Shown here: positions 3,591 through 61,552 of the stretch, in pieces
Position numbering within the stretch: position 1 is the first letter of the stretch
Layout of the letters: each line of letters begins with the position of its first letter
Assembly: GCA_013180625.2 (NCBI GenBank)
Contig: SNVD02003460.1
Span: 114,777-178,776, forward strand
Length of the DNA: 64,000 nucleotides
Origin: Boswellia sacra
Taxonomy: Eukaryota; Streptophyta; Magnoliopsida; Sapindales; Burseraceae
Direction of reading: 5' to 3'
Notes under the pieces: generated by a model
What the model was told of the DNA's origin: nothing
Database searches by the model: none
The model's input: only the letters and a program-made list of their open reading frames with translations
Position numbers and translations under genes: made by a program

Positions 3591-4440
3591 AGCAAATATC
3601 GCCAAACTTAATATTTTGCTAGTACTCAAGCAAAACCAAAACAATCAATAACATAAAACAAATATCGTCAAGTCAAAAATTGCCCATGTCAAATCAAACT
3701 TCTGCTTTATCACTGTAATGAATCTCAAAAATTGGATCATTGATAACTCAAAAGAAATTACAAACTCGCAAAACCATCTAAGATCCTCCTCAACATCGGT
3801 TAACTCTATTTTCATTTCCTCATATGTGTTTGTGCGGAGTCAATCTCACATTGTTGAATGCAATTCAAATGAGATTATTCAACTAAATAAGTAAAACAAA
3901 CATTTATCATATAAAAAACAGAGACTCCATAAGCTCACTAGTCAAGTTACTCTCCAATAATTTAGATCAATTCAACATCAAAGATCAAATAGGACTTTTC
4001 AAAGCTTGTAATGTCTGACTAGGTCAATAAGGGTATGGAAAGAAAGTCAATTTTTTGGGTTTAATTTACTCATAAGGCATCTAAAATCTCCCAAAAACTT
4101 CATACTTATCCACCCTTACAAAATCATGTTCGCAATACAATTCCTATCAAGCTTCAATTGAGTTTCATCTCCCCTTCTATTGTTGAACATCTACTAAATA
4201 CTGCAAAAGCACACAACACCTTCATCTTGTCAACTCGGGTGACTGCTGACTATTCTCTCTCTCTCTCTCTCTCTTTTTCTTTTCTGGACAATGCAATGTT
4301 GATTCCATTAAGCTTTCTTTTTAGTTCTGTAACAAACTTTCAGCTAGTAACTCTTAAGCCAATTGGCCTTAGGTACTGGATGTTAAGACATCCTTAAGAG
4401 CTTACTTGCTTAAACTAAAAATGCTACAAAATCAACCTCA
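3591..4440 (-). repeat. Internal remnant of a Gypsy element next to the decayed LTR
   Basis: Positions 4340-4400 contain the TTGGCCTTAG...GTTAAGACA...GAGCTTA motif that also occurs twice at 34860-35075, inside the LOG-carrying retrotransposon. The orientation relative to the neighbouring LTR is the same as there. A short CT microsatellite lies at 4254-4273. No intact ORF is present. Confidence 0.45.
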
Positions 4441-32925: not shown

Positions 32926-32930
32926 ATATC

Positions 32931-34457
32931 TGACACATCCGAAAAAGGATTGTCTCCCAAGTATAGGAGTGTCGAAGTAATAAACCCGGTGAGACCGAGG
33001 TCGATCCACGAGGAAGGGGATTTTAGCGTTACAAGTTATAAGATAAGCAAATATGATATGAATAATTCAAGAAAATTACAAGATAATATCAATAAATATG
33101 TAAGATGGTAGGCGGTATTACCGACCATTCAAATATAAAACAAAAAGCAAGAGGAGGTAAAACCATCCATGGAAATAGGTGGTATAACCAACCATAGTAA
33201 ATTAAAGAACAATTTCATAAGGTGGTAGAACCTACCATAGTAAATAAAATAAAAAGTTCATAAACAATAGAATAATTAAAATACAAAAGGAATTAACACA
33301 ATAACAATGAAGGCTAAGGTTAGGGGATCCGCCCTTGATATTTCAAATAAGGATAATTAACCCATTTTAGTTATATGAATTATATTTGTTTCATTACCAA
33401 TATTTATACCACTTCTTGTAAATGGGTTCAAGCATCCAATGTGCCAATCACCATATGTCTACAACAAATCAAGGTTCCTAACTAGATTCGTGTCGGTAAG
33501 GAAGAACCATACATCATCTAGAAAGGATCCAAGCATTTGATGTGCCAAGGATTGTCGACAATGGATCAAGACCTCCACTTTACGAGTGGTGTCAAGATTG
33601 ATTAAGAAATTAAATATAAATCATATTGAATAAACATTATAAGATTAAGATTATTAAGCACATATTAAGGGTTAGAGAATCCTTATTCTCATATCAAGGG
33701 TTTCACCCTTTCACCTTAGCAAAAGAGAAATTAGAAGAACATTATAATAGAAAGAAAATAAAATGCAAGAAAAAGGAAATTCATTAATAACATAAACACA
33801 CAAAACACAATACAAGATCCTAGCCAAAGCCAAAATGTTCCAGCCAAGGCCAAGATGCCCCAATGGGTCACAAGGTACCCCTATTTATAGATACATCCAG
33901 GGGCAAATTTGTCAAATTACAAGGGCACAATTGTCAAATATTAGTTGTAAATATCTTTGACAATTGGGATCATTAGGCACCGACTTTGACCATCAATTTT
34001 GACATCGAAAGTTATGAATTTTAATCACATGTCTTCATGAAAGTTATAGATATTTCTCTCAGCTTTCTAGAACATATTGATTTGCACAATTTGGATACGT
34101 ATTTTGAGAGATACGGTCCAAATACTGAGGCCTGGTCAGACTGGGCCGAGACTGTAGATGGGTTCATTTCAAGCCCAATTTTGGTCCACTAAGAGCCCGA
34201 ATTTGATGATGCTTGTGAAATGCAATCTTGTAGACAATTGAATCAGCTTTCCAAAACATTAAGAATTGCACCATTCTGATCTATAAATAGAGAGTTATGC
34301 CCATTTTACCGAACCTATAACAAAACCAAAATTAAGAGAAATTAATTCCAAAGATGCAAATGCTACAAATATGCTTAAGTTGAGGAATTTAATGACACTA
34401 TTAATGCAATATGATGAACTAAACTCTTATTAAACATGCATATTTAAGTGTTCATCA
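32931..34457 (-). repeat. 3' LTR of the LOG-carrying retrotransposon
   Basis: 1,527 bp, about 97% identical by eye to 39591-41115. The polypurine tract adjoins it at 34458-34468 (CACCCCCCAAC, purine-rich on the minus strand). Confidence 0.93.
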
Positions 34458-34839
34458 CACCCCCCAACTAGCTTATTGCTAGTCCCTAGCAATTAAAGCG
34501 TTATTATTTAGAAGTGATTTATAGAATTTTACATCCAAGGTGGTCATTATTGCACTCTCCTTGATTTTATCCAAATAAACAAACTCTCAACCAATTTTTT
34601 TTTTAATTTTTTATGACTCATGTACCCTTCAGTCAAGATATCAATAAACCTTCTTTTTGTGCTCAGTCAACACATGACTATGGGGCTTATTAGAAAGAAG
34701 CCATATCGGTTCTAATATTTGTTAAGGCTAACAACTTTAGGTAGGGGACATTCATTTATTTTATATATATATGTGTTGTTGTTGTTGTTTTTATTTTTTA
34801 TTTTTTTTTGAAAGAATGCATCTTTAACCCATGTAGCGA

Positions 34840-35075
34840 GCCTTAGGCTAATGGCTCCCAGACCAGTTGGCCTTAGGGCATTAGGTGTTAAGACACCCCT
34901 TCGAGCTTAACGACTCGGGTTGCCGATGCTTTATTTTTGCTTAGAAAACTTGTGGATAGTGCAATGTTCAATCCCATTAAGCTTTCTCCTTAATCCATGT
35001 AGCGAGCTTTGGGCCAATAGCTCCCAAACCAGTTGGTCTTAGGGTATTAGGTGTTAAGGCACCCCTCGGGCTTAA
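34840..35075. repeat. Two-copy tandem repeat in the 3' untranslated region
   Basis: Two copies (about 34835-34912 and 34990-35075) of CATGTAGCGAGC(C/T)TT-GG...CCAGTTGG(C/T)CTTAGGG, followed by TTAGGTGTTAAG. A decayed third relative is at 4340-4400. Confidence 0.8.
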
Positions 35076-35814
35076 TTGCTCGAATTAAGGAGGCTACGAG
35101 ACCAAACTTTATCCACAATTGCTATTTTTTCTCTTTTTTTTCTTTTTTTTTTTTTTTTTTTAACTTTCCCCTTCCTTTGTGTTGTTATCCTAAACAAAAC
35201 AAAAGAACTCAAATATTACAACATTTCATTTTGCCACCCACAATCATGCATCAAGGTATGTGTGTGTGTGTGAAGAAAGGCTCATGAATACTTGCTTAAT
35301 GAGTACATAAGCACACAATTTTTTTTTTTTTAAATGATAAGGTTGTGAGAGTTCATAGATTTGAATAATTCAAAGTGAAATGAATAAGACTTCCTTGTTA
35401 TAAAATTCAAAAATCAAGTCTAAATAATATCAAGTTAGCTAAAATGAGTTCATAAGATCAAAATAAAATGACAAATTGGTTAGAATGGGTTTCAAGAGTT
35501 CAAACTGGCCCTCCATACTCTGCCATTCCTGACCCAGAATGCGTCTCAAGAGGATTTGAACTCCTTACACCGCACTCTGAATCTAATTACTAACTCCTTT
35601 TTTTTTTTTGCAAGAAAAAATAAAATTTCAAGACACACTTATGTCTACTATCCTTCCCCCCCAACCAAAAATGAAACATTGTCCTCAATGTTTAAATGTA
35701 GAGAGATAAAGTATAGGAGACATTACCTGAAGCTTCTGTTATTCAAGAGAGATGACCTGAAAGACTCATAAAATAACATGCTAAAAATAAAATAAAATAA
35801 AAGACAAAAAAAAA

Positions 35815-36483
35815 TTACAAACGGAGATTCAGATCCAATTTGCACTTTTTGTTTTGCCCTCCTGCCCAATTAATTTGAGTACTAGCTGGGTCAGGTTCAT
35901 ACTCAACTTCTTGTAATTTGTCAAGTAACTCACCAGCAGAAGTGGCAGAAACAAGGATCTTTCTCGCCCAATGTGGGATAAAATTTTGTTCTACAGCTGC
36001 ATCAACAAAACTTATTAAAGGATCAAAGAAATTGTTAACATTCAACAAACCTATGGGTTTTTGATGGAGGTTCAGTTGGGCCCAAGAGGCAATTTGAAAA
36101 ATTTCTTCAAAAGTACCAAAGCCACCTGGTAAAGCAATAAAGGCATCTGAATTGATGAGCATATGTGCCATGCGTTCATGCATAGAGGAGACTTGCATCT
36201 CTGTCCCAACCGTTTTTCCAACGATGCTTTCTATAGCCAATGCTTTAGGAATAATTCCTAAAACTTGACTACCTCCTACATGTGCAGCTGTTGACACGCA
36301 ACCCATTAACCCGAGGCTACCTCCCCCATAAACCACATTAATCTTTCTTTCAGCTAGTAGCCTATCAAGATAATTTGCTACTTGTACAAACTCCTCACTT
36401 TTGCCTGGTCGAGATCCACAGAATACACATATCCTTTGGATTTGACGTTTTGAAGTTCCCTCAATGTCTATGCAACTCTCTAA
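35815..36483 (-). CDS. LOG-type cytokinin riboside 5'-monophosphate phosphoribohydrolase, retrotransposon-borne
   Basis: An uninterrupted frame of about 222 codons, close to the normal LOG length. It opens with QRICVFCGSRPGK, then VVYGGGSLGLMG (nucleotide-binding Gly-rich loop), SSMHERMAHM, and the signature ALPGGFGTFEEIF (PGGxGTxxE). It ends CKLDLNLRL. LOG enzymes release free-base cytokinins from their riboside 5'-monophosphates in one step in the cytosol. There is no intron, whereas plant LOG genes normally have several, so capture through spliced RNA is inferred. No in-frame ATG precedes the conserved N-terminus; a stop (TAG) lies just before about 36484. It therefore needs an alternative start or upstream fusion, or has lost its start. 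It has the same orientation as gag, between the Cys-rich ORF and the 3' LTR. Confidence 0.85.
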   Translation of the reverse strand, partial: LESCIDIEGTSKRQIQRICVFCGSRPGKSEEFVQVANYLDRLLAERKINVVYGGGSLGLMGCVSTAAHVGGSQVLGIIPKALAIESIVGKTVGTEMQVSSMHERMAHMLINSDAFIALPGGFGTFEEIFQIASWAQLNLHQKPIGLLNVNNFFDPLISFVDAAVEQNFIPHWARKILVSATSAGELLDKLQEVEYEPDPASTQINWAGGQNKKCKLDLNLRL

Positions 36484-36772
36484 CTATGTGTGAAGAGGAG
36501 AACAAGTGATGCGGCATTTATGGAGTGCAAAAAGATATGCTAATGATGACATCTAAATGGGTAGCTCGGTTGCTTGTTGAAAAATTTGACACGAATGCAT
36601 AAAAGTTCAAAAAGATGATGAAATAAGACACTATAAGTCAAACAAATTCAAAAATGACAACTAATAGGCATTAAAGTTCAAAAATGACCGCACGCATGCA
36701 TATGTACAGGTAGTTGTGACTGTGGCTCACATCTTCCTCTGGTTTTACGTCCAGAAACGGCTTAAACACCTT

Positions 36773-37321
36773 CTATGAGTTGGGGATATGCTTCCCATCC
36801 AGTTTTCTTATAAACTGGCAAACAGGGTCGTTTTGAGTCAGATTCCCAAGACTATAGCGTTCCAGCTCATCTCGGAATTGTGTCCACAATTTAAAAATTT
36901 CACGTTGCACAAGTCCACAAGAATGCGTCTCAAGAGTCATTCGGATATCATCCAAAGACTCCTTACTCAGTCCATTCTTGATGAACTGTATTTTATCCTC
37001 TCGATTATTAGACAAATATCCTAAGGAGCGGCAACGCTGGTTACAAGTCCATCTTGCACATTTGGGACAAACTTGTAACCTTTTCGCTCTTCGCTTTTTG
37101 GCGTAAGAGCTTTTTTCCATACCTGGCAAGTGAGAAAAAAGATTATCTGAAAATTCATGAGAAAATCGAACCTTGGCTTCAATTAATCATCTTAAATCAG
37201 CAGGAATACCCTTGTGCATCAACATCCTTAGTCTTTCTACGCGAGCTTTGTAAATTTTAAGCAAATCATTTTGAGGAAGAGAGGGAAAATGTTTGTGCAA
37301 TTTTGAGAGAATGGTATCCAT
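36773..37321 (-). pseudogene. Conserved Cys-rich ORF of LOG-carrying retrotransposons (183 codons)
   Basis: Starts MDTILSKLHKHFPSLPQNDL at 37321. After a UGA at codon 45 the same frame continues with LIEAKVRFSHEF, a basic SSYAKKRRAKRLQ, and a CPKCARWTCNQRC cluster (CX2CX4CX3C, probably metal-binding). The C-terminal region ends VCQFIRKLDGKHIPNS. The same protein, in the same place relative to LOG, is encoded at 58772-59326 in another element. Its conservation across two diverged elements argues that it was translated. I do not recognise the family. A nuclear or RNA-binding accessory role is conceivable from the basic stretch and Cys cluster, but that is a guess. Confidence 0.75.
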
Positions 37322-37375
37322 GTGAACAAAATGAGAGAGAAGAAAAGAAAATGGATGCAAGGTGAGCAACAGTTT

Positions 37376-39355
37376 TTAGGGAACTAAAAAACCGACTTTA
37401 AAAGTCACGGAGTACCGTATCCGCCACTTGACCGGAAAACAAAATGCAAACACACAAATAAAATAAAAGCACATAAAATAAATTAAGAACAAACTAGAAA
37501 TGATAGCAAAAATCAAGAATAAAAAAGAAAATATATCACAGATGGATGAAATTTGAACAATCGTAAAAAAAAGCCAAAAGAGGAATCTCTTCAAAAGTAA
37601 TTTACCACGGTCAAAAATATACCATTGAGATGGTACCTTTCTTTTTCCTTTATTTGTGAGAATGGAAGAGATTACCACTAGTTGTATTTGTTTGTCCTTG
37701 AGGCATGCATTCTTGAGTGTGAATGTTTCTTCCTGCCTTTGTTCAAAACATGGCTCCCAACTCTTAATCTCCTTCACCTGTATAAAATCAAGTAATGAGA
37801 ATTCTTTAGAAGCAATGGGCACTAGTTGCATGTTTGCTTCAAATGAACTAGTTAACCCAATTTCTGAAGGACTTGAAAAATTCTCATTTTGGATATAGTC
37901 TTCCACGTTAGTTTTAATCTTATTAGCTTCCTCACATTCATCATGTTTGAAAAATTCATTATTGTCAAAATTTTGGTTGAGTTCCTTTACATGATGGCAT
38001 GAGGGCATAAGTGAGGATTCGATCTCTTCCTTGTTAGGTGTAGGTTTATTAACCTCTTCTTTACCCTTTGAGATTGATTCATCATCTTTCTCATAAGGGT
38101 TAGGAATATGTTCTTTATCAACCTTACCATCGTGAAGAGTACTTACCGAATCTCCGTCTAGATGTTGGCCACTTGGATTACTCATATGTGGATTGATGGA
38201 GTTTGGCTCTAGTTGAGATGGAAACTCACCTTTCTCATGAGTACTAAGTGCAAATGCAAGGTTTTCAAGAACATCATTCAAGTTCGCCATAGTCTGAGCA
38301 GTTTGACTATTAAAAGCCTCTTGCTTTGCAATGAATGAATTCAATGTTTCTTCAAGATCCTCATAAGATGCATGATCATGAGATTTTTGAAAATTTTGAT
38401 ATGATTGAAAGGAAGGTTGGTAAGATTGTGCATTATTATCATTCCTCCAATCATAATTCAAGTGATTTTTCCATCCAAAATTTTGTGAGTACGGATTAGG
38501 ATTTGACCTTTGGAAAGTGTTTAAAACATTGGTTTGGTCATGGAGACTTTTCCTAAAGGTAGGCACAATTGGGCAATCATCCGTAGGATGATCACTAGAA
38601 TTACAAGTTTGACAGACAATTTTTTGCATAGACCACATTTCTAAGTCCTCGACTTTCCTAGCTAGGGATGTAAATTTAACATGTAAATCATGATTCTCCC
38701 TAAAGTTATATATGCCTCTACTAGATGTTCTTGGTACCTCATAGGTGCCAACATTGTTCCAATTTTGGACATTTTTCGCTAGTAAGTCCAGGAAATCCAT
38801 GGCTTCATCAGGGTCTTTATTTTCAAATTGTCCATTACACATTAATTCTACCATTTGCCTAGCTTGATGTGTAAGACCTTCATAGAAAATTAGAACTAGT
38901 TCCCATGTTTCCAAACCATGATGAGGACAAGTATTAAGCAATGCTTTATACCTATCCCAACATTGGTAAAAGGTCTCTCCTTGTTTTTGAGTGAAATTGA
39001 TGATTTGCACTTTGGGAGAATTTGTTCTATAGGGAGGAAAGAATTTTTTAAGAAATTGTTGTTGCATTTCATCTCATGAGCTAATAGATCCTGACCTAAG
39101 ATTTTGTAGCCATGTTTTAGCTTTATCTTTTAAAGAAAAAGGAAAAAGCTTTAATCTAAAGATGTTTATGCTACAATTTAGGTCACAATAGATAGTGCAA
39201 AAATCTTTAAATTCTCTCAAATGCAAAAATGGGTTTTCAACATCTAGGCCATGAAAGTGGGGTAAGAATTGAATGAAATCCGATTCATGGTTGAAATATT
39301 TTGCATCATGAGGGAAGACTATGCATGATTGTGCATGAGTTCTTATGTAATCCAT
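37376..39355 (-). pseudogene. Gag of the Athila/Tat-like retrotransposon
   Basis: The first frame (39355-39074) carries the retrotransposon-gag core (FIQFLPHFHGLDVENP, FPFSLKDKAKTWLQNL). A single UGA at the expected Trp of a SWDEM-type motif splits it from the next frame (39067-37376), which starts MQQQFLKKFFPPYRTN and continues TFYQCWDRYKALLNTCPHHG. A zinc knuckle CQTCNSSDHPTDDC (CX2CX4HX4C) follows near 38600. The C-terminal part is low-complexity and acidic, and from about 37580 it runs into a hydrophobic, apparently non-gag tail. No DxGA protease follows. Gag would form the virus-like particle. Apart from the one nonsense codon it is well preserved. Confidence 0.88.
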
Positions 39356-39566
39356 TAATGTCCTTTGTTGGGTATGAGCATGTTTTCCAAAGAAGATCAG
39401 TGGCTACAAACAATTCTACCAACTAATGTAAAGAGAAAGAAAAGATGAGCACATGAAAGAAAAATAAAAATAGAAATGAGGAGAGAAAAGAGAAACACAT
39501 ACAAGAAAAATAAAAATAGAAATGAGAAAAGAGAATACTTACAATTTTGCACACCAATTTTTAACT

Positions 39567-39584
39567 TCCCCGACAACGGCGCCA
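39567..39584 (-). promoter_or_regulatory. Primer-binding site, tRNA-Asp
   Basis: The minus strand reads TGGCGCCGTTGTCGGGGA, complementary to the 3' end of tRNA-Asp with one mismatch. It lies 6 bp inside the 5' LTR. The same primer is used by elements X and Y and by Athila/Tat elements in general. Confidence 0.85.
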
Positions 39585-39590
39585 AAAACT

Positions 39591-41115
39591 TGACACATCC
39601 GAAAAAGGATTGTCTCCCAAGTATAGGAGTGTCAAAGTAATAAACCCGGTGAGACCGAGGTCGATCCACGAGGAAGGGGATTTTAGCGTTACAAGTTATA
39701 AGATAAGCAAATATGATATGAATAATTCAAGAAAATTACAAGATAATATCAATAAATATGTAAGATGGTAGGCGGTATTACCGACCATTCAAATATAAAA
39801 CAAAAAGCAAGAGGAGGTAAAACTATCCATGGAAATAGGTGGTATAACCAACCATAGTAAATTAAAGAACAATTTCATAAGGTGGTAGAAATTACCATAG
39901 TAAATAAAATAAAAAGTTCATAAACAATAGAATAATTAAAATACAAGAGGAATTAACACAATAACAGTGAAGGCTAAGGTTAGGGGATCCGCCCTTGATA
40001 TTTCGAATAAGGATAATTAGCCCATTTTAGTTATATGAATTATATTTGTTTCATTACCAACATCTATACCACTTATTGTAAATGAGTTTAAGCATCCAAT
40101 GTGCCAATCATCATATGTCTACAACAAATCAAGGTCCTAACTAGATTCGTGCCGGTAAGGAAGAACTATACATCATCTAGAAAGGATCCAAGCATTTGAT
40201 GTGCCAAGGATTGTCGACAATGGATCAAGACCTCCACTTTACGAGTGGTGTCAAGATTGATTAAGAAATTAAATATAAATCATATTGAATACACATCATA
40301 AGATTAAGATTATTAAGCACATATTAAGGGTTAGAGAATCCTTATTCTCATATCAAGGGTTTCACCCTTTCACCTTAGCAAAGAGAAATTAGAAGAACAT
40401 TATAATAGAAAGAAAATAAAATGTAAGAAAAAGAAAATTCATTAACAACATAAACACACCAAACACAATACAAGATCCTAGCCAAAGCCAAAATGTTCCA
40501 GCCAAGGCCAAGATGCCCTAATGGGTCACAAGGCACCACTATTTATAGATACATCCAGGGGCAAACTTGTCAAATTACAAGGGCATAATTGTCAAATATT
40601 AGTTGTAAATATCTTTGACAATTGGGATCATTAGGCACCGACTTTGACTATCAATTTTGACATCGAAATGTTGTGAATTTTAATCACATGTCTCATGAAA
40701 GTTGTAGATATTTCTCTCAGCTTTCTAGAACATATTGATTTGCACAATTTGGATATGTATTTTGAGAGATACGGTCCAAATACTGAGGCCTGGTCAGACT
40801 GGGCCGAGACTGTAGATGGGTTCACTTCAAGCCCAATTTTGGTCCACTAAGAGCCCAAATTTGATTATGCTTGTGAAATACAATCTTGTAGACAATTGAA
40901 TCATCTTTCCAAAACATTAAGATTTGCACCATTCTGATCTATAAATAGGAAGTTATACCCATTTTACCGAACCTACAACAAAACCAAAATTAAGAGAAAT
41001 TAATTCCAAAGATGCAAATGCTACAAATATGCTTAAGTTGAGGAATTTAATGACACTATTAATGCAATATGATGAATTAAACTCTTATTAAACATGCATA
41101 TTTAAGTGTTCATCA
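39591..41115 (-). repeat. 5' LTR of the LOG-carrying retrotransposon
   Basis: 1,525 bp; the promoter for the minus-strand transcript should lie here. Followed by the TSD ATATC. Confidence 0.93.
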
Positions 41116-41120
41116 ATATC

Positions 41121-41572: not shown

Positions 41573-42986
41573 TGATAGGTGTTTATTTATGTATTACTTT
41601 CATATCAATTCGTCTATGTTTCTTTGCTATATTCCTTAGTATTTTTATGTTTTTGTGTGGTTTTGGATGTTTGTAGGAGTTTTGGAGCAACTTGCACAAA
41701 AATGGAGTAAAACCCTTCATTTTCACCTCTGCTAGTCAACCATCTTCTCGGATTTAATTATATTGATATATAATGAACCCGATGACATGTTGTATACCGT
41801 TGGAAAGCTCTCGAAGTTTATTTTCTAGAGAAATTTACGGTTCATGAATTCATTCAATGTACCAACAGTTATAATCAAAACAGTGTGAGAAGTGTAGAAA
41901 TATAATTTCACAAATCTCTATAGCATGTATAATACGGGGCACTGTAGCAGGTTACTGTAGCAGAGTATATAAACACATTTTAGGGTTTTGTTTTGATAAC
42001 TTGAAGAGGGGAGAATGTGTGGGAGGCTTCAGCTCTGGATTTCTCTCATCTCCTGGAGTTCTTGAAGGAGAAAGAAGGCTTGGAAAGAGGAAGAACTACA
42101 ATCTTAAGAGATTTTCATCAAATTTGCTAAGTTTTCCCTTTCCCCTTCATTTTCTGGAATGTCTCCATATTGTAGTGTATTTGTATTGTGTCTGAATATG
42201 TGTAACTAAATCTGAATTGGTTGAGGGTGATTTCAAAGCCCTTGATATGGTTCTTATGAGTTTATTGTGCAAGATATTGTTATCCAATTCTCTAATTGAA
42301 GTTGCTTGTATTCTCCCATATTTAATGCTTATGATTGCTTGCTGATTGTATTTGGGTGGCCAACTAAATATAATTTGGATGTCGTCTATTGCTAGACTAG
42401 AAATCTTGATCCGTAATTGTCTTGAATTTCTAATCATTAGTAGCAAAATTGTGATCAGAGATTGCAAATGGAGAATATAACCTACGTTAAATAATCCGAG
42501 CTTGTGTGTTTATTGCTTAGATCAACCTATCTGTCTTATCGTAATGCATCCATTGAATTAAATTTAGAGAGCTTGTTCTAGGTTGTTTAATGGATAGAGA
42601 TTAAATAAAGAGCCTGTTTTGTTTAACAACAAAGTATGGAAAGATTGGGATAACAGAGCTTGTTGTTATCTACGGTTGATAATTTCAATGGTGTAATTGG
42701 ATGACAATTCTATGATTTATTCACAAATCCATATCTTGTGGTAGAGAATGATCCCTTAGCCAAATTTCTGTCATTGATTAATTCTCACTTCAATTAAGTT
42801 TGCATTGTGTTATTCTTTATTTGCATTAATATTTCATCTAGTTAATCAATCAACAAAACTCCCCATTTATTCTGTTTTCGCTTTCGAATAACAAATTTAA
42901 TTAGAATCAATCCTCGTGGGAACGATATCTTACTCATCACTTTATTACTTGTGCGACTAGTATACTTGCTAGTTTCGAACGCATCA
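41573..42986 (+). mobile_element. Solo LTR of the X/Y Athila-like family, TSD ATTAA
   Basis: 1,414 bp beginning TGATAGGTG and ending CGAACGCATCA, flanked by perfect ATTAA copies (41568-41572, 42987-42991). It is closely related to the LTRs at 54955 and 60050. The frames 42001-42195 and 42147-42467 inside it are not genes. Confidence 0.93.
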
Positions 42987-42991
42987 ATTAA

Positions 42992-49890: not shown

Positions 49891-50356
49891 TGGATAGATG
49901 AGTTTGGAACACGAGGAAGGTCGACGTTGTAACGGTATAGAGGGGAGCCACGATTTTAGGGTTCAATTTGAGTTGAATTAGATTGATTTGTGGCGAGTTA
50001 ATTGAGTTTGTGGCTAAATTGCATACCGCTACAAGACCAAAACGTCATCGTTTTCATTTCTCTTTTTAAATAGATTGACTAATTTTTTATTAGTTTTCTG
50101 GTATTGTCTATATATTTATTTAACAATAAAATTATATTAATAATTTAACTTATTCTTAAGTTTAGGTTTTTGCAACGTGCAAGACATGCACGTTGCAGAA
50201 GCCTAGTTTTCGCAACGTGCATCATGTGCACGTTGTTAAAACTATGTTTTCGCAACGTGCATTTGTTGCACGTTGCCAAAAGATAGATTTCGCAACGTGC
50301 ACAACGTGCACGTTGCGAATTGCCTGTTGCCTTAGGTGATTTTTCTTCTAGTGTGA

Positions 50357-51164
50357 TTATCTTAGTATGTTCTTCTTTCCAGGGCAAAGGATTCTTTTGA
50401 AGTCTTTGATATAAAGGTTTGTATAATTTTCTAAGATTTGGAAAGAAATCTGAGACATAATTTAAAGATCCTAAAAATCTTTGTAATTGATTTTTATCTT
50501 TAATTTCATCTAGAAATTTATCAGCAAATTCTATTGCTCTTTGAACAAGTTTTATCGTTCGTTGATATATGTCATATCCTAAAAATCTTATTTTTGTTTG
50601 AAATAATTTCATTTTTGAGGCATAAATTACTAAACCATTTTTCTTGACTACATAAAAGAATGCTTTTAAATGTTTAAAATGTTGTTATATTGCTTCAAAA
50701 AAAATTAATATATCATCTATATATATGATAATAAATTTTGTATAAGGATTGAATATATCATTCATAATATACTGAAATTCAGATGGAGCATTCTTTAATC
50801 TAAATGGCATTGCATTCCATTCATAACGCCCAAATGGAACTGTAAAAGCTATTTTAGATCTGTTTTGTTTTGTAATTTGAACTTCTCAGAAACCACTTTT
50901 TATATCAAATTTTGAAAATAATATTGCATTATAAAGTCTTTTAAGTAAATCTCGTTTATTGGAAATAGGATATCTAATGCATTGTAATACTTTGTTTAGA
51001 GGTTTGTAATTGATTACTAGTCTTGGAACTCCTCTTTCTAATTCGAGTTTTTTATTAACATAAAATGCTGCATAACTCCAAGGTGATTTAGATTCTCTTA
51101 TTAATTTTTTTTTTAATAAATCTTGTATTTCTTCTTGACAATATTGTAATAATTCTTGATTCAT
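50357..51164 (-). pseudogene. Caulimovirid reverse transcriptase remnant
   Basis: The minus frame 51164-50886 contains the N-terminal RT blocks (including an SPWSYAAFYV stretch and VPRLVINYKPLN). After a stop the frame reaches the catalytic YIDD (50712-50723) and then the thumb/connection segment (FLGYDIY, FLGSLNYV). It is truncated at 50357 by the CACTA insertion. Two or more in-frame stops inactivate it. Confidence 0.88.
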
Positions 51165-54954: not shown

Positions 54955-56363
54955 TGATAAGTGTCTATTTATATATCATTTTCATATCAATTCGTCCATG
55001 TTTCTTTGCTATATTCCGTGGTATTTTTATGTTTTTGTGTGTTTTGATGTTTGTAGGAGTTTTGGAGCAACTTGCACAAAAATGGAGTAAAACCCTTCAT
55101 TTTCACCTCTGCTAGTCAGTGATCTTCTCGGATTTAATTGTATTGATATACAATGAACCCGACGACATATTATATACCGTTGGAAAGCTCTCGAAGTCTA
55201 TTTTTTTGGAGAAATTTACGGTTTATAAATCCATTCAGTGTACCAAAAGTTCTAATCAAAACAGTATGAGATGTATAGAAATATAATTCCACAAGCCACT
55301 GTAGCATGTATAATACGGGGCACTGTAGCAAGTCACTGTAGCAGAGTATTTAAACACATGTTAGGGTTTTATTTTCATAACTTGAAGAGGGGAGAACGTG
55401 GTGGAGGCTGCAGCTCTGGAATTCTTTCATCTCTTGGAGTTCTTGTAGAAGAAAGGAAGCTTGGAAAGAGGAAGAACTACAATCCAAAGAGAATTACATC
55501 AAATTTGCTAAGATTTTACCTTCCCTTTCATTTTCTGGAATGTCTCCATGTTGTATTGTATTTACCACGTTCTAAAACATGTGTAACTGAATATGAATTG
55601 GTTGAGGGTGATTTCAAAGCCCCTGATATGGTTTTTGTAAGTTGATTGTGTAAGGAATTGTTATCCAATTCTCTATTTGAAGTTGCTTGTATTCTCCCAT
55701 ATTTAATGCTTATGATTGCTTGCTGATTGTATTTGAGTGGCCAACTGAATATAATCTGGTTGTGATTTATTGCTAGACTAGAAATCTTGATCCGTAATTG
55801 TCTTGAATTTCTAATCATTAGTAGCAAACTTGTGATCAGAGATTACAATTGGAGAATATAACCTAAGTTAAATAATCCGAGCTTGTGTGTTTATTGCTTA
55901 GATCAACCTAGCTTTCTTATCATAATGCATCCATTGAATTAAACTCAGAGAGCTTATTCTAGGTTGTTTAATGGATAGAGATTAAATAAAGAGCTTGTTT
56001 TATTTAACAACAAAGTAAGGAAAGATTGGGGTAATAGATCTTGTTATTATCTACGGTTGATAACTTCAATGCTGTAATTGGATGACAATTCTACGATTAA
56101 TTCGCAAATCCATATCTTGTGTAGAGAAGGATCCCTTAACCAGCTTTCTCTCATTGATTTTTCATTCGAATTAACTTTCTGTTTTGTTATTCTTCGTTTG
56201 CAATATTATTTCACTTAGTTAATCAATCAACAAAACCCCCCATTTACTCTGTTTTTGCTTTCAAATAACAAATTTAATTAGAATCAATCCTCGTGGGAAC
56301 GATATCTTACTTATCACTTTATTACTTGTGCGACTAGTATACTTGCTAATTTCGAACGCATCA
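54955..56363 (+). repeat. 5' LTR of element X
   Basis: 1,409 bp from TGATAAGTGTC to CGAACGCATCA, homologous to the LTRs at 41573 and 60050. Confidence 0.9.
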
Positions 56364-56369
56364 AGTTTT

Positions 56370-56387
56370 TGGCGCCGTTGCCGGGGA
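56370..56387 (+). promoter_or_regulatory. Primer-binding site of X, tRNA-Asp
   Basis: TGGCGCCGTTGCCGGGGA, fully complementary to the 3' end of tRNA-Asp, 6 bp after the LTR. Confidence 0.9.
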
Positions 56388-56475
56388 TTGATTTTCTAAT
56401 CGATTTGTTATTTTGTTTTCATTGTTCATTCATATTTTCTTTGTTTTTCTTTTCTGATTGTTTGTGTTTAGATAA

Positions 56476-58771: not shown

Positions 58772-59326
58772 ATGGATGCCGATATCTTTCTGTCGAACCT
58801 TCGTAAATATTTCCCTTCACTTCCTCAAAATGTTGTGTTTAAAATTTATAAAGTACGGATGACTAGACTTTGGGCATTGATGCTCCTAAATGTGCCTGCT
58901 GATATCTGATGGCTTATCGAAGCCAAGGTGAGATTGTCCGGTGAGCCGGACATTAATCTCGCAAAATACATGCCTGGTCTAGGAAAGAGCTACTACGCCA
59001 AGAGGCGAAGAGCGAAAAGGTTACAAGTATGTTATAAATGTGCTAGATGGAATTGTAACCAGACTTGTCGTTCATTAGGTTTTGCGTCCAGGAATAGAGA
59101 AGATAAACTTTCATTTATTAAGAATGGTTTGAGTAATGAGTCGCTGGATAATGTTTTGTTAACTCTCGAGTCACATTCTTGTGGACTTGTTCAGCGTGAA
59201 TTGCTTAATCTATGGACACAATTTCGTGATGAATTGCAGTGTTATAGTCTAGGGAATCTGACTAAAAACGACCCTGTTTGCCAGTTTATAAGAAAACTGG
59301 ATGGGAAGCAAATCCCCGACTCATAG
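58772..59326 (+). pseudogene. Conserved Cys-rich ORF, element X copy (185 codons)
   Basis: Starts MDADIFLSNLRKYFPSLPQN; a UGA follows PADI at codon 46. The same frame continues WLIEAKVRLSGEP, then YYAKRRRAKRLQVCYKCARW with CNQTC (same CX2CX4CX3C spacing), and ends VCQFIRKLDGKQIPDS. About 65-70% of residues match the copy at 37321-36773 by eye, and homology continues about 60 bp past the stop. The UGA sits one codon before the corresponding UGA in the other copy. Function unknown. Confidence 0.75.
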
Positions 59327-60049: not shown

Positions 60050-61446
60050 TGATAGGTGTCTATTTATATATCATTTTCATATCAATTCGTCCATGTTTCT
60101 TTGCTATATTCCTTGGTATTTTTATGTTTTTGTGTGGTTTTTGATGTTTGTAGGAGTTTTGGAGGAACTTACACAAAATTGGAGTAAACCCCTTCATTTT
60201 CACCTCTGCTAGTCAACCAATTTCTTGGAGTTGATTGTATCGATATACAATTAACCGGATAACATGCTATATACCATTGAAAAGCTCTCGAAGTTTATTT
60301 TCTGGAGAAATTTACGGTTCACGAATTTATGTAGTGTACCGAAAGTTGTGATAAAAATGGTATGAGAAGTGTATATTTGTAATTCCATATATCACTGTAG
60401 CAAGTTACTGTAGCAGAGTATTTAAACACATTTTAGGGTTTTATTTTCATAACTTGAAGAGGGGAAAACGTGGGAGGAGGCTGCATTTCTGGATTTCTCT
60501 CATCCCTTGGAGTTCTTGAAGGAGAAAGAAGATTTGAAAGAGGAGGAACTACAATTCCAAGAAGATTCATCTACAAAGAAGATTTTCAAAGAATTTGCTA
60601 AGTTCTTTCTTTCTTTTTAAATTCTGGAATTTCTCTGTATTGTATTTGTTATTCTGATTGAATATGTGTAACTAAATATGAATTGGTTGAGGATGATTTC
60701 AAAGCCCTTGATATGGATTTTGTGAGTTGATTGTGTAAGAAATTGTTATCCACTTCTCTAATTGAAGTTGCTTGTATTTTCCCATATCTAATGCTTATGA
60801 TTGCTTACTGATTGTATTTGGAATGGCCAACTGAATATAATCTGTTGTTGTCTATTACTAGATTAGAAATCTTGATCCGAAATTGTCATGAATTTCCAAT
60901 CATTAGTAGCAAAATTGTGATCAGAGATTGCAATTGGAAAATCCAACCTAGGTTAAATAATCCGAACTTGTGTGATTATTGCTTAGATCAACCTATCTTT
61001 CTCATCGTAATGCTTATATTGAATTAAACTTAGAGAGCTTGTTCTAGGTTGTTTAATGGATAGAGATTAATAAAGAGCTTGTTTTATTTAACAACAAAGT
61101 AAGGAAAGATTGGGATAACAGCGCTTGTTGTTATCTACGGTTGATAACTTCAATGCTGTAATTGGATTACAATTCTATGTTAATTCACAAATTCATATCT
61201 TGTGGTAGAGAAAGAACCCTTAACCAAGTGTCTCTCAGTGATCTTTCATTCAAATTAACTTCTGTTTTGTTATTCTTAATTTGCATTCTTATTTCATTTA
61301 GTTAATCACTCAACAAAACCCCCACATTTAGTTAATTGTTGCTGGAAATAACAAATTCAATTAGAATCAATCCTCGTGGGAACGATAGCTTACTGATCAC
61401 TTTATTACTTGTGCGACTAGTATACTTGCTAGTTTCGAACGCATCA
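60050..61446 (+). repeat. 5' LTR of element Y
   Basis: 1,397 bp from TGATAGGTGTC to CGAACGCATCA. Confidence 0.9.
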
Positions 61447-61452
61447 AGTTTT

Positions 61453-61470
61453 TGGCGCCGTTGCCGGGGA
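61453..61470 (+). promoter_or_regulatory. Primer-binding site of Y, tRNA-Asp
   Basis: TGGCGCCGTTGCCGGGGA, identical to the site of X. Confidence 0.9.
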
Positions 61471-61552
61471 TTGATTTTCTAATCAATTTGTTATTCTGTT
61501 TTTACTACTGATTCTTGATTGTTATTTCCTGATTGTTTGGGTTTAGGCTTTT

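Follow-up and report, generated by a model that had tools for sequence, protein, structure and literature searches.

In a 64,000-nucleotide stretch of the Boswellia sacra genome (contig SNVD02003460.1, positions 114,777 to 178,776; hereafter the window), we examined a long terminal repeat (LTR) retrotransposon at 32931-41115 that carries a reading frame for a LONELY GUY (LOG) phosphoribohydrolase. Relatives of this frame from other plants fall with it into one well-supported clade, distinct from ordinary plant LOGs, in which the catalytic core is strongly conserved and most proteins end in a short, leucine-based tail. The explanation we lean towards, and hold to be somewhat better supported than doubtful, is that a Ty3/gypsy-type family took up a plant LOG once, long ago, and keeps it as a sense 3' accessory gene.

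The element and its LOG frame

The element reads on the minus strand and, in its own sense, runs from the 5' LTR through a primer-site-like stretch, gag, an open reading frame (ORF) resembling viral nucleic-acid-binding proteins (NABPs), the LOG frame and a G-rich tract to the 3' LTR. Its features, together with a second NABP-like copy located elsewhere in the window, are as follows:

32931-41115, minus strand: LTR retrotransposon, flanked by a target site duplication (TSD) and bounded by two LTRs
32926-32930, no strand: left TSD, ATATC, a perfect match to the right copy
41116-41120, no strand: right TSD, ATATC, a perfect match to the left copy
39591-41115, minus strand: 5' LTR, 1525 bp (blastn)
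32931-34457, minus strand: 3' LTR, 1527 bp (blastn)
39567-39584, minus strand: primer-site-like stretch TGGCGCCGTTGTCGGGGA, just inside the 5' LTR
34458-34465, minus strand: G-rich tract GGGGGGTG, likely the polypurine tract, directly inside the 3' LTR
37376-39355, minus strand: gag-type frame, interrupted by a single in-frame stop and thus listed as two ORFs, 39355-39074 and 39067-37376
36773-37321, minus strand: second 3' ORF, 182 codons with one in-frame stop, related to Viral_NABP/Carla_C4 (Pfam, relatives)
35815-36483, minus strand: LOG reading frame, 222 codons plus stop, without a start Met (Pfam, Arabidopsis match, predicted fold)
36103-36129, minus strand: PGGFGTFEE, active-site motif of LOG at residues 119-127 (hand-derived coordinates)
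35818-35850, minus strand: C-terminal KKCKLDLNLRL, a basic patch plus LxLxL, EAR-like (see below), residues 212-222 (coordinates by hand)
58772-59326, plus strand: second NABP copy, in an element lacking LOG, with one in-frame stop; 82% DNA identity over 443 columns

The two LTRs, the TSD, the primer site and the polypurine tract identify 32931-41115 as an LTR retrotransposon in which LOG is oriented as gag, in line with what a first-pass annotation, made from the DNA letters alone, had proposed. Its estimate that the LTRs are about 3% different agrees with the 96.99% identity given by blastn; both repeats have TG...CA ends. The pair differs by 34 transitions and 8 transversions across 1524 sites, a Kimura two-parameter distance of 0.028, which at rates of 1.3e-8 and 6.5e-9 per site per year places the insertion at ~1.1-2.2 million years ago. 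The primer-site-like stretch is one that we take to be of the tRNA-Asp type.

This copy is decayed and non-autonomous. The gag-type frame matches Retrotrans_gag PF03732 in both of its pieces (E 7.7e-9 for ORF 39067-37376 and 0.0086 for ORF 39355-39074), and an autonomous element would be expected to hold gag intact along with pol; here gag contains a stop, and pol, called absent in the first-pass annotation, was indeed not found. Specifically, a Pfam scan of four ORF translations (LOG, the NABP piece and two gag pieces, rather than the whole element) returned no pol family, and a crude scan of the element for a reverse transcriptase (RT) motif gave nothing convincing. The first-pass annotation inferred an Athila/Tat-like element, a label that stays putative. 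The extra ORFs, NABP-like and LOG, occupy the sense 3' position, and the Athila ORF-1 domain, present in 16% of Athila elements (PMC6317226, available in part), was not found in the four scanned translations.

The LOG frame itself is real, and its sequence places it far beyond chance, because it matches Lysine_decarbox PF03641 at E 4.9e-38; it is open for 222 codons without interruption, as had been claimed. The closest solved protein is Arabidopsis At2g37210 (E 6.1e-61), with which an AlphaFold2 model of the frame, computed from a 46-row alignment (mean predicted local distance difference test score, pLDDT, 85.3; predicted template modelling score, pTM, 0.81), aligns in Foldseek at a TM score of 0.96 by target length and 0.75 by query length (root-mean-square deviation 1.0). 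Residues 1-10, 211-213 and 219-222 of the model are of low confidence. The frame thus combines the marks of a LOG phosphoribohydrolase, namely PGGFGTFEE, the preceding Arg and, in the predicted model, the LOG fold; the activity shown by PGGxGTxxE proteins is that of a phosphoribohydrolase and not of a decarboxylase (PMC7891180, in part). While the fold, the motif and the Arg before it are shared with the plant LOGs At2g37210 and At5g11950, the window type differs in lying inside an element, in forming its own clade on a long stem, and in its basic and LxLxL C-terminus.

The window copy probably makes no full LOG protein, because its first in-frame Met is residue 60 and an Ile stands where the start Met of its relatives aligns (position 36465). 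The first-pass annotation had described the LOG frame as kept open through recent activity. Open it is; yet with the start gone and stops in gag and NABP, this copy is not an example of a gene kept working, and constraint on LOG is visible only across the family. A GTAAGT in the leader, together with a pyrimidine tract and AG directly before LOG (the AG shares ranks 4-8 of 292 in a crude splice score), could yield a spliced LOG mRNA. In the 3' untranslated part of the element, an 80-bp unit is duplicated (34821-34900 and 34987-35066, 88% alike), and 34950-35080 resembles 4282-4410 of the window at 73%.

One clade of relatives, its enzyme core and its tail

A protein search with LOG returned 7625 proteins out of 7996 scored candidates, of which the best 120 were listed, and a second search with a Xanthoceras query likewise listed the best 120. 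A first tree of 72 of the 194 LOG proteins and two Arabidopsis LOG chains set 68 of its 74 rows apart as one clade (Shimodaira-Hasegawa-like approximate likelihood ratio test, SH-aLRT, 100; stem length 0.82 changes per site), with six ordinary LOG rows outside it. In a second, careful tree (36 of the 194 proteins plus two Arabidopsis chains), 32 of 38 rows formed one clade with support 100/100, again against six ordinary rows. These ordinary rows had been chosen by name and looks, a choice later borne out by the 74-row tree.

The sources of the clade include Reevesia, Diplodiscus, Pterospermum, Xanthoceras, Acer, Melia, Populus, Parasponia, Rehmannia, Paulownia and Primulina, among others, and the five species that were looked up belong to five orders (Malvales, Sapindales, Malpighiales, Rosales and Lamiales). 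With rosid and asterid members in one clade, a recent private capture of LOG is rejected, and the capture, which the first-pass annotation described as that of a host LOG mRNA, is an old one and not private to the host. The clade, compared with only six ordinary LOG rows, is compatible with vertical descent and interspecies transfer alike. The approximately unbiased (AU) test did not reject the Malvaceae rows (Reevesia, Diplodiscus) as one clade (p 0.15) and rejected the Lamiales rows as one (p 0.021), both groups having been named after the tree was seen; we give the Lamiales result no weight, since Primulina sits on a long branch. Scanning IMG/VR with LOG (tblastn) revealed no relative.

LOGs of the window type proved numerous in other plants, in accord with the first-pass view of a mobilised gene. 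Among the 120 matches listed, 49 distinct Reevesia gene tags represent 199 member sequences (hand count), and a Pterospermum-led cluster comprises 327 members; in the list from the Xanthoceras query, Xanthoceras-led clusters comprise 39 and 35, from records that bear several tag prefixes and may pool assemblies. Copy numbers of this kind fit mobile elements. Members of the clade are recorded in databases as host genes, e.g., LOGL10 in Populus.

Conservation was counted over 155 near-full-length rows of the 194 proteins, the window's included, after removal of 4 ordinary LOGs, 5 rows that were fused or abnormal and 30 whose length fell outside 205-235 amino acids. Active-site residues are retained in 95-99% of these rows: R104 in 148/155, P119 in 147/155, G121 in 154/155, G123 and T124 in 152/155, and E126 and E127 in 151/155. 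Moreover, 42 of 216 columns are occupied by a single residue in 97% or more of the rows (counted over 71 of the 155), whereas 100 uniform-rate alignments simulated on the fitted tree had on average 4.5 such columns and never more than 9. Gene finders favour open frames, but such a bias does not protect single residues. These counts show strong conservation of the LOG catalytic core across the family.

The window LOG ends in KKCKLDLNLRL, and its LDLNLRL end has the LxLxL form of an ethylene-responsive element binding factor-associated amphiphilic repression (EAR) peptide. An [LM]xLx[LF] end is present in 131/155 rows, and a slightly different pattern, which also requires a basic patch before it, in 123/155; the three tail leucines are kept in 138/140, 133/139 and 136/138 rows, with variable residues between them. 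The 205-235 amino acid cut favours the tail, because truncated rows were removed, and the first LOG query was itself tail-bearing; among all 194 LOG proteins, 132 have [LM]xLxL within the last 14 residues. None of the four ordinary LOGs with an examined end (P0261, P0262, P0265 and P0267) has the tail. EAR motifs bring in TOPLESS-type corepressors. The described repression motifs are LxLxL and DLNxxP, with DLELRL as the minimal SUPERMAN motif (PMC6479872, in part), and Arabidopsis LOG proteins have been seen in both nucleus and cytosol (PMC7891180, in part). The tail suggests a second, nuclear role for the protein, and by analogy with EAR peptides it might, with less assurance, bind TOPLESS.

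The NABP-like neighbour and its linkage to LOG

The first-pass inventory of the element saw LOG correctly but overlooked the NABP-like ORF at 37321-36773. A protein search with this ORF gave 400 proteins out of 405 candidates, of which the best 120 were listed, including matches from Rhamnella, Parasponia, Xanthoceras, Populus, Orobanche and Acer. At E 0.01, PF05515 was matched by 41/41 of the relatives and PF01623 by 40/41, and four invariant Cys lie within the matched part. Under the curated Pfam cut-offs, seven of nine NABP proteins pass PF05515 and eight of nine pass PF01623; the second window copy passes both, and the 118-amino acid NABP piece of the LOG element falls just under both. The two window copies differ at 23, 11 and 39 sites in codon positions 1, 2 and 3, with a ratio of nonsynonymous to synonymous rates (dN/dS) of 0.16 (NG86), 0.20 (YN00) or 0.24 (LWL85). 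A structure model (pTM 0.30) was too weak for use, a PDB search with the NABP profile gave no match at E 1, and an IMG/VR scan with the NABP alignment (tblastn) found no relative. The likeness to flexivirus nucleic-acid-binding proteins (Viral_NABP PF05515, Carla_C4 PF01623) thus consists in the match to both families and the four invariant Cys, whereas the window ORF, of ~180 amino acids, differs in being encoded by a retrotransposon, beside gag and LOG.

LOG and NABP also appear together outside the window. In Xanthoceras, ACOSQ2_032186 (LOG, P0255) and ACOSQ2_032187 (NABP, P0178) bear consecutive tags and come from contigs of equal size. Of the contig sizes above 4 kb, two, 8723 and 4511, are common to the LOG lists (19 sizes) and the NABP list (15), against 0.02 expected (P 1.5e-4, jitter null); the size 2128 is common to both as well, although short sizes coincide more easily by chance.

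Elsewhere in the window, another LTR-type repeat family, related but lacking LOG, occupies 41573-42987, 54955-56419 and 60050-61502, its copies being 85-90% alike, and the primer-site-like stretch that follows the third repeat is one base off that of the LOG element. An ORF at 50145-50612 (minus strand) presumably resembles a caulimovirid-type RT/RNase H fragment.

Origin and possible function

Steinbauerova et al. (2011) is reportedly in line with the presence of a YgdH domain in LTR elements. This domain, which is linked to LONELY GUY, was found in LTR-element consensuses of Citrus sinensis and C. clementina, and in those of P. trichocarpa only without a filter (PMC9289625, in part); a mobile LOG, which the first-pass annotation deemed unusual biology, had therefore already been reported. 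Those Gypsy-type elements likewise encode a LOG-type domain, but neither the tail nor an NABP partner nor a single origin is mentioned in the available part of PMC9289625. Plant Ty3/gypsy elements have further accessory ORFs, namely the antisense TRP28 of Retand, the plant mobile domain of Ogre and an orchid AlkB demethylase (PMC11963269, PMC6317226 and PMC9289625, each in part). These are similarly extra genes outside gag-pol, yet contain other domains, and TRP28 is antisense whereas LOG is sense. LOG in elements is not mentioned in the available parts of PMC6317226, PMC11963269 and PMC13317346, nor does the term occur in PMC7264820. Literature searches, judged from their listings and with coverage mostly outside subscription papers, brought up no publication about either the tail or NABP in retrotransposons. 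Thus, what appears to be new beside the known YgdH elements, with no publication found, is the single origin, the breadth, the tail and the NABP partner.

Several observations weigh against a single, old uptake of LOG that the family has since retained. The window copy is damaged, lacking a LOG start and bearing one stop each in gag and NABP. The constraint on LOG rests on proteins called intact by gene finders. The numbers of members per cluster may combine several sources, and for most of these clusters the contig column is 1. The Xanthoceras/Acer branch stops just past the basic patch, without LxLxL. LOG and NABP distances, over only five linked pairs, gave a weak correlation (r 0.45, with 11/120 permutations as high). 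The retrotransposon setting of the LOG relatives is direct in the window only and indirect elsewhere. Finally, a related NABP-bearing element in the window is without LOG, and LOG is therefore not needed by all such elements.

The broken window copy and the LOG-less relative would also suit a neutral passenger, i.e., a host mRNA picked up through template switching and then copied along with no benefit to the element, as would the often transient nature of gene capture by LTR elements (PMC11963269, in part). We nevertheless regard this as improbable, given one clade in five orders on a long stem and site conservation far above the uniform-rate null. Somewhat less improbable, if still unlikely, is that the LOG domain is mainly a scaffold for the tail, the protein being a nuclear repressor in which cytokinin release carries little weight. 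Conservation of the tail leucines matches that of the active site, and LOG proteins can reside in the nucleus as well as the cytosol (PMC7891180, in part); however, a scaffold has no need of the active-site residues kept in 95-99% of the 155 rows, and the Xanthoceras/Acer branch keeps the enzyme without the LxLxL end.

That the clade is an ordinary host LOG lineage, with the window element an isolated capture and the relatives outside elements, would agree with the annotation of relatives as host genes (LOGL10 in Populus, for one). Against it stand the 49 Reevesia genes and the clusters of up to 327 members among the matches listed, the adjoining LOG and NABP genes in Xanthoceras with the shared contig sizes, and the YgdH domain of LTR-element consensuses from Citrus and Populus (PMC9289625, in part), and we consider it very unlikely. 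We saw no point in support of the LOG stretch being a local assembly chimera or a nested host gene outside the element, and its probability is negligible: LOG lies in sense between gag/NABP and the 3' LTR, its frame is uninterrupted, the TSD is perfect, and a similar LOG-NABP pairing exists elsewhere. An assembly chimera was accordingly rejected on the perfect TSD and the presence of the family elsewhere.

Under the favoured account, of an old uptake and a retained accessory gene, intact copies would make active LOG that converts cytokinin ribotides to free cytokinin in the cell expressing the element. Raised free cytokinin may then favour dividing, meristem-like states, allowing new insertions to reach the germ line. 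The tail could, more tentatively, bring in TOPLESS-type corepressors, such that the protein would also act on transcription, and the NABP-like ORF may bind nucleic acid. It is conceivable, though we hold it only tentatively and think it doubtful, that LOG with its EAR-like tag is a host-manipulation gene, encoded beside the virus-shared protein and kept since about the rosid-asterid split in a eudicot-wide lineage. Were this true, the element, wherever it transposes, would reprogram both hormone state and transcription in that cell, much like pathogen effectors.

These findings bear on plant genomes more widely. LOG-family surveys may count transposon genes as host genes, since members of the clade go under the names LOGL10 or LOG-like in sequence databases. 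The NABP-like ORF ties the NABPs of plant RNA viruses to retrotransposons and prompts the question of which side acquired the gene from the other. Should the element LOGs prove active, transposons would bear a gene that can alter the hormone controlling plant meristems, and this would offer a testable reason for an element to keep a host enzyme.

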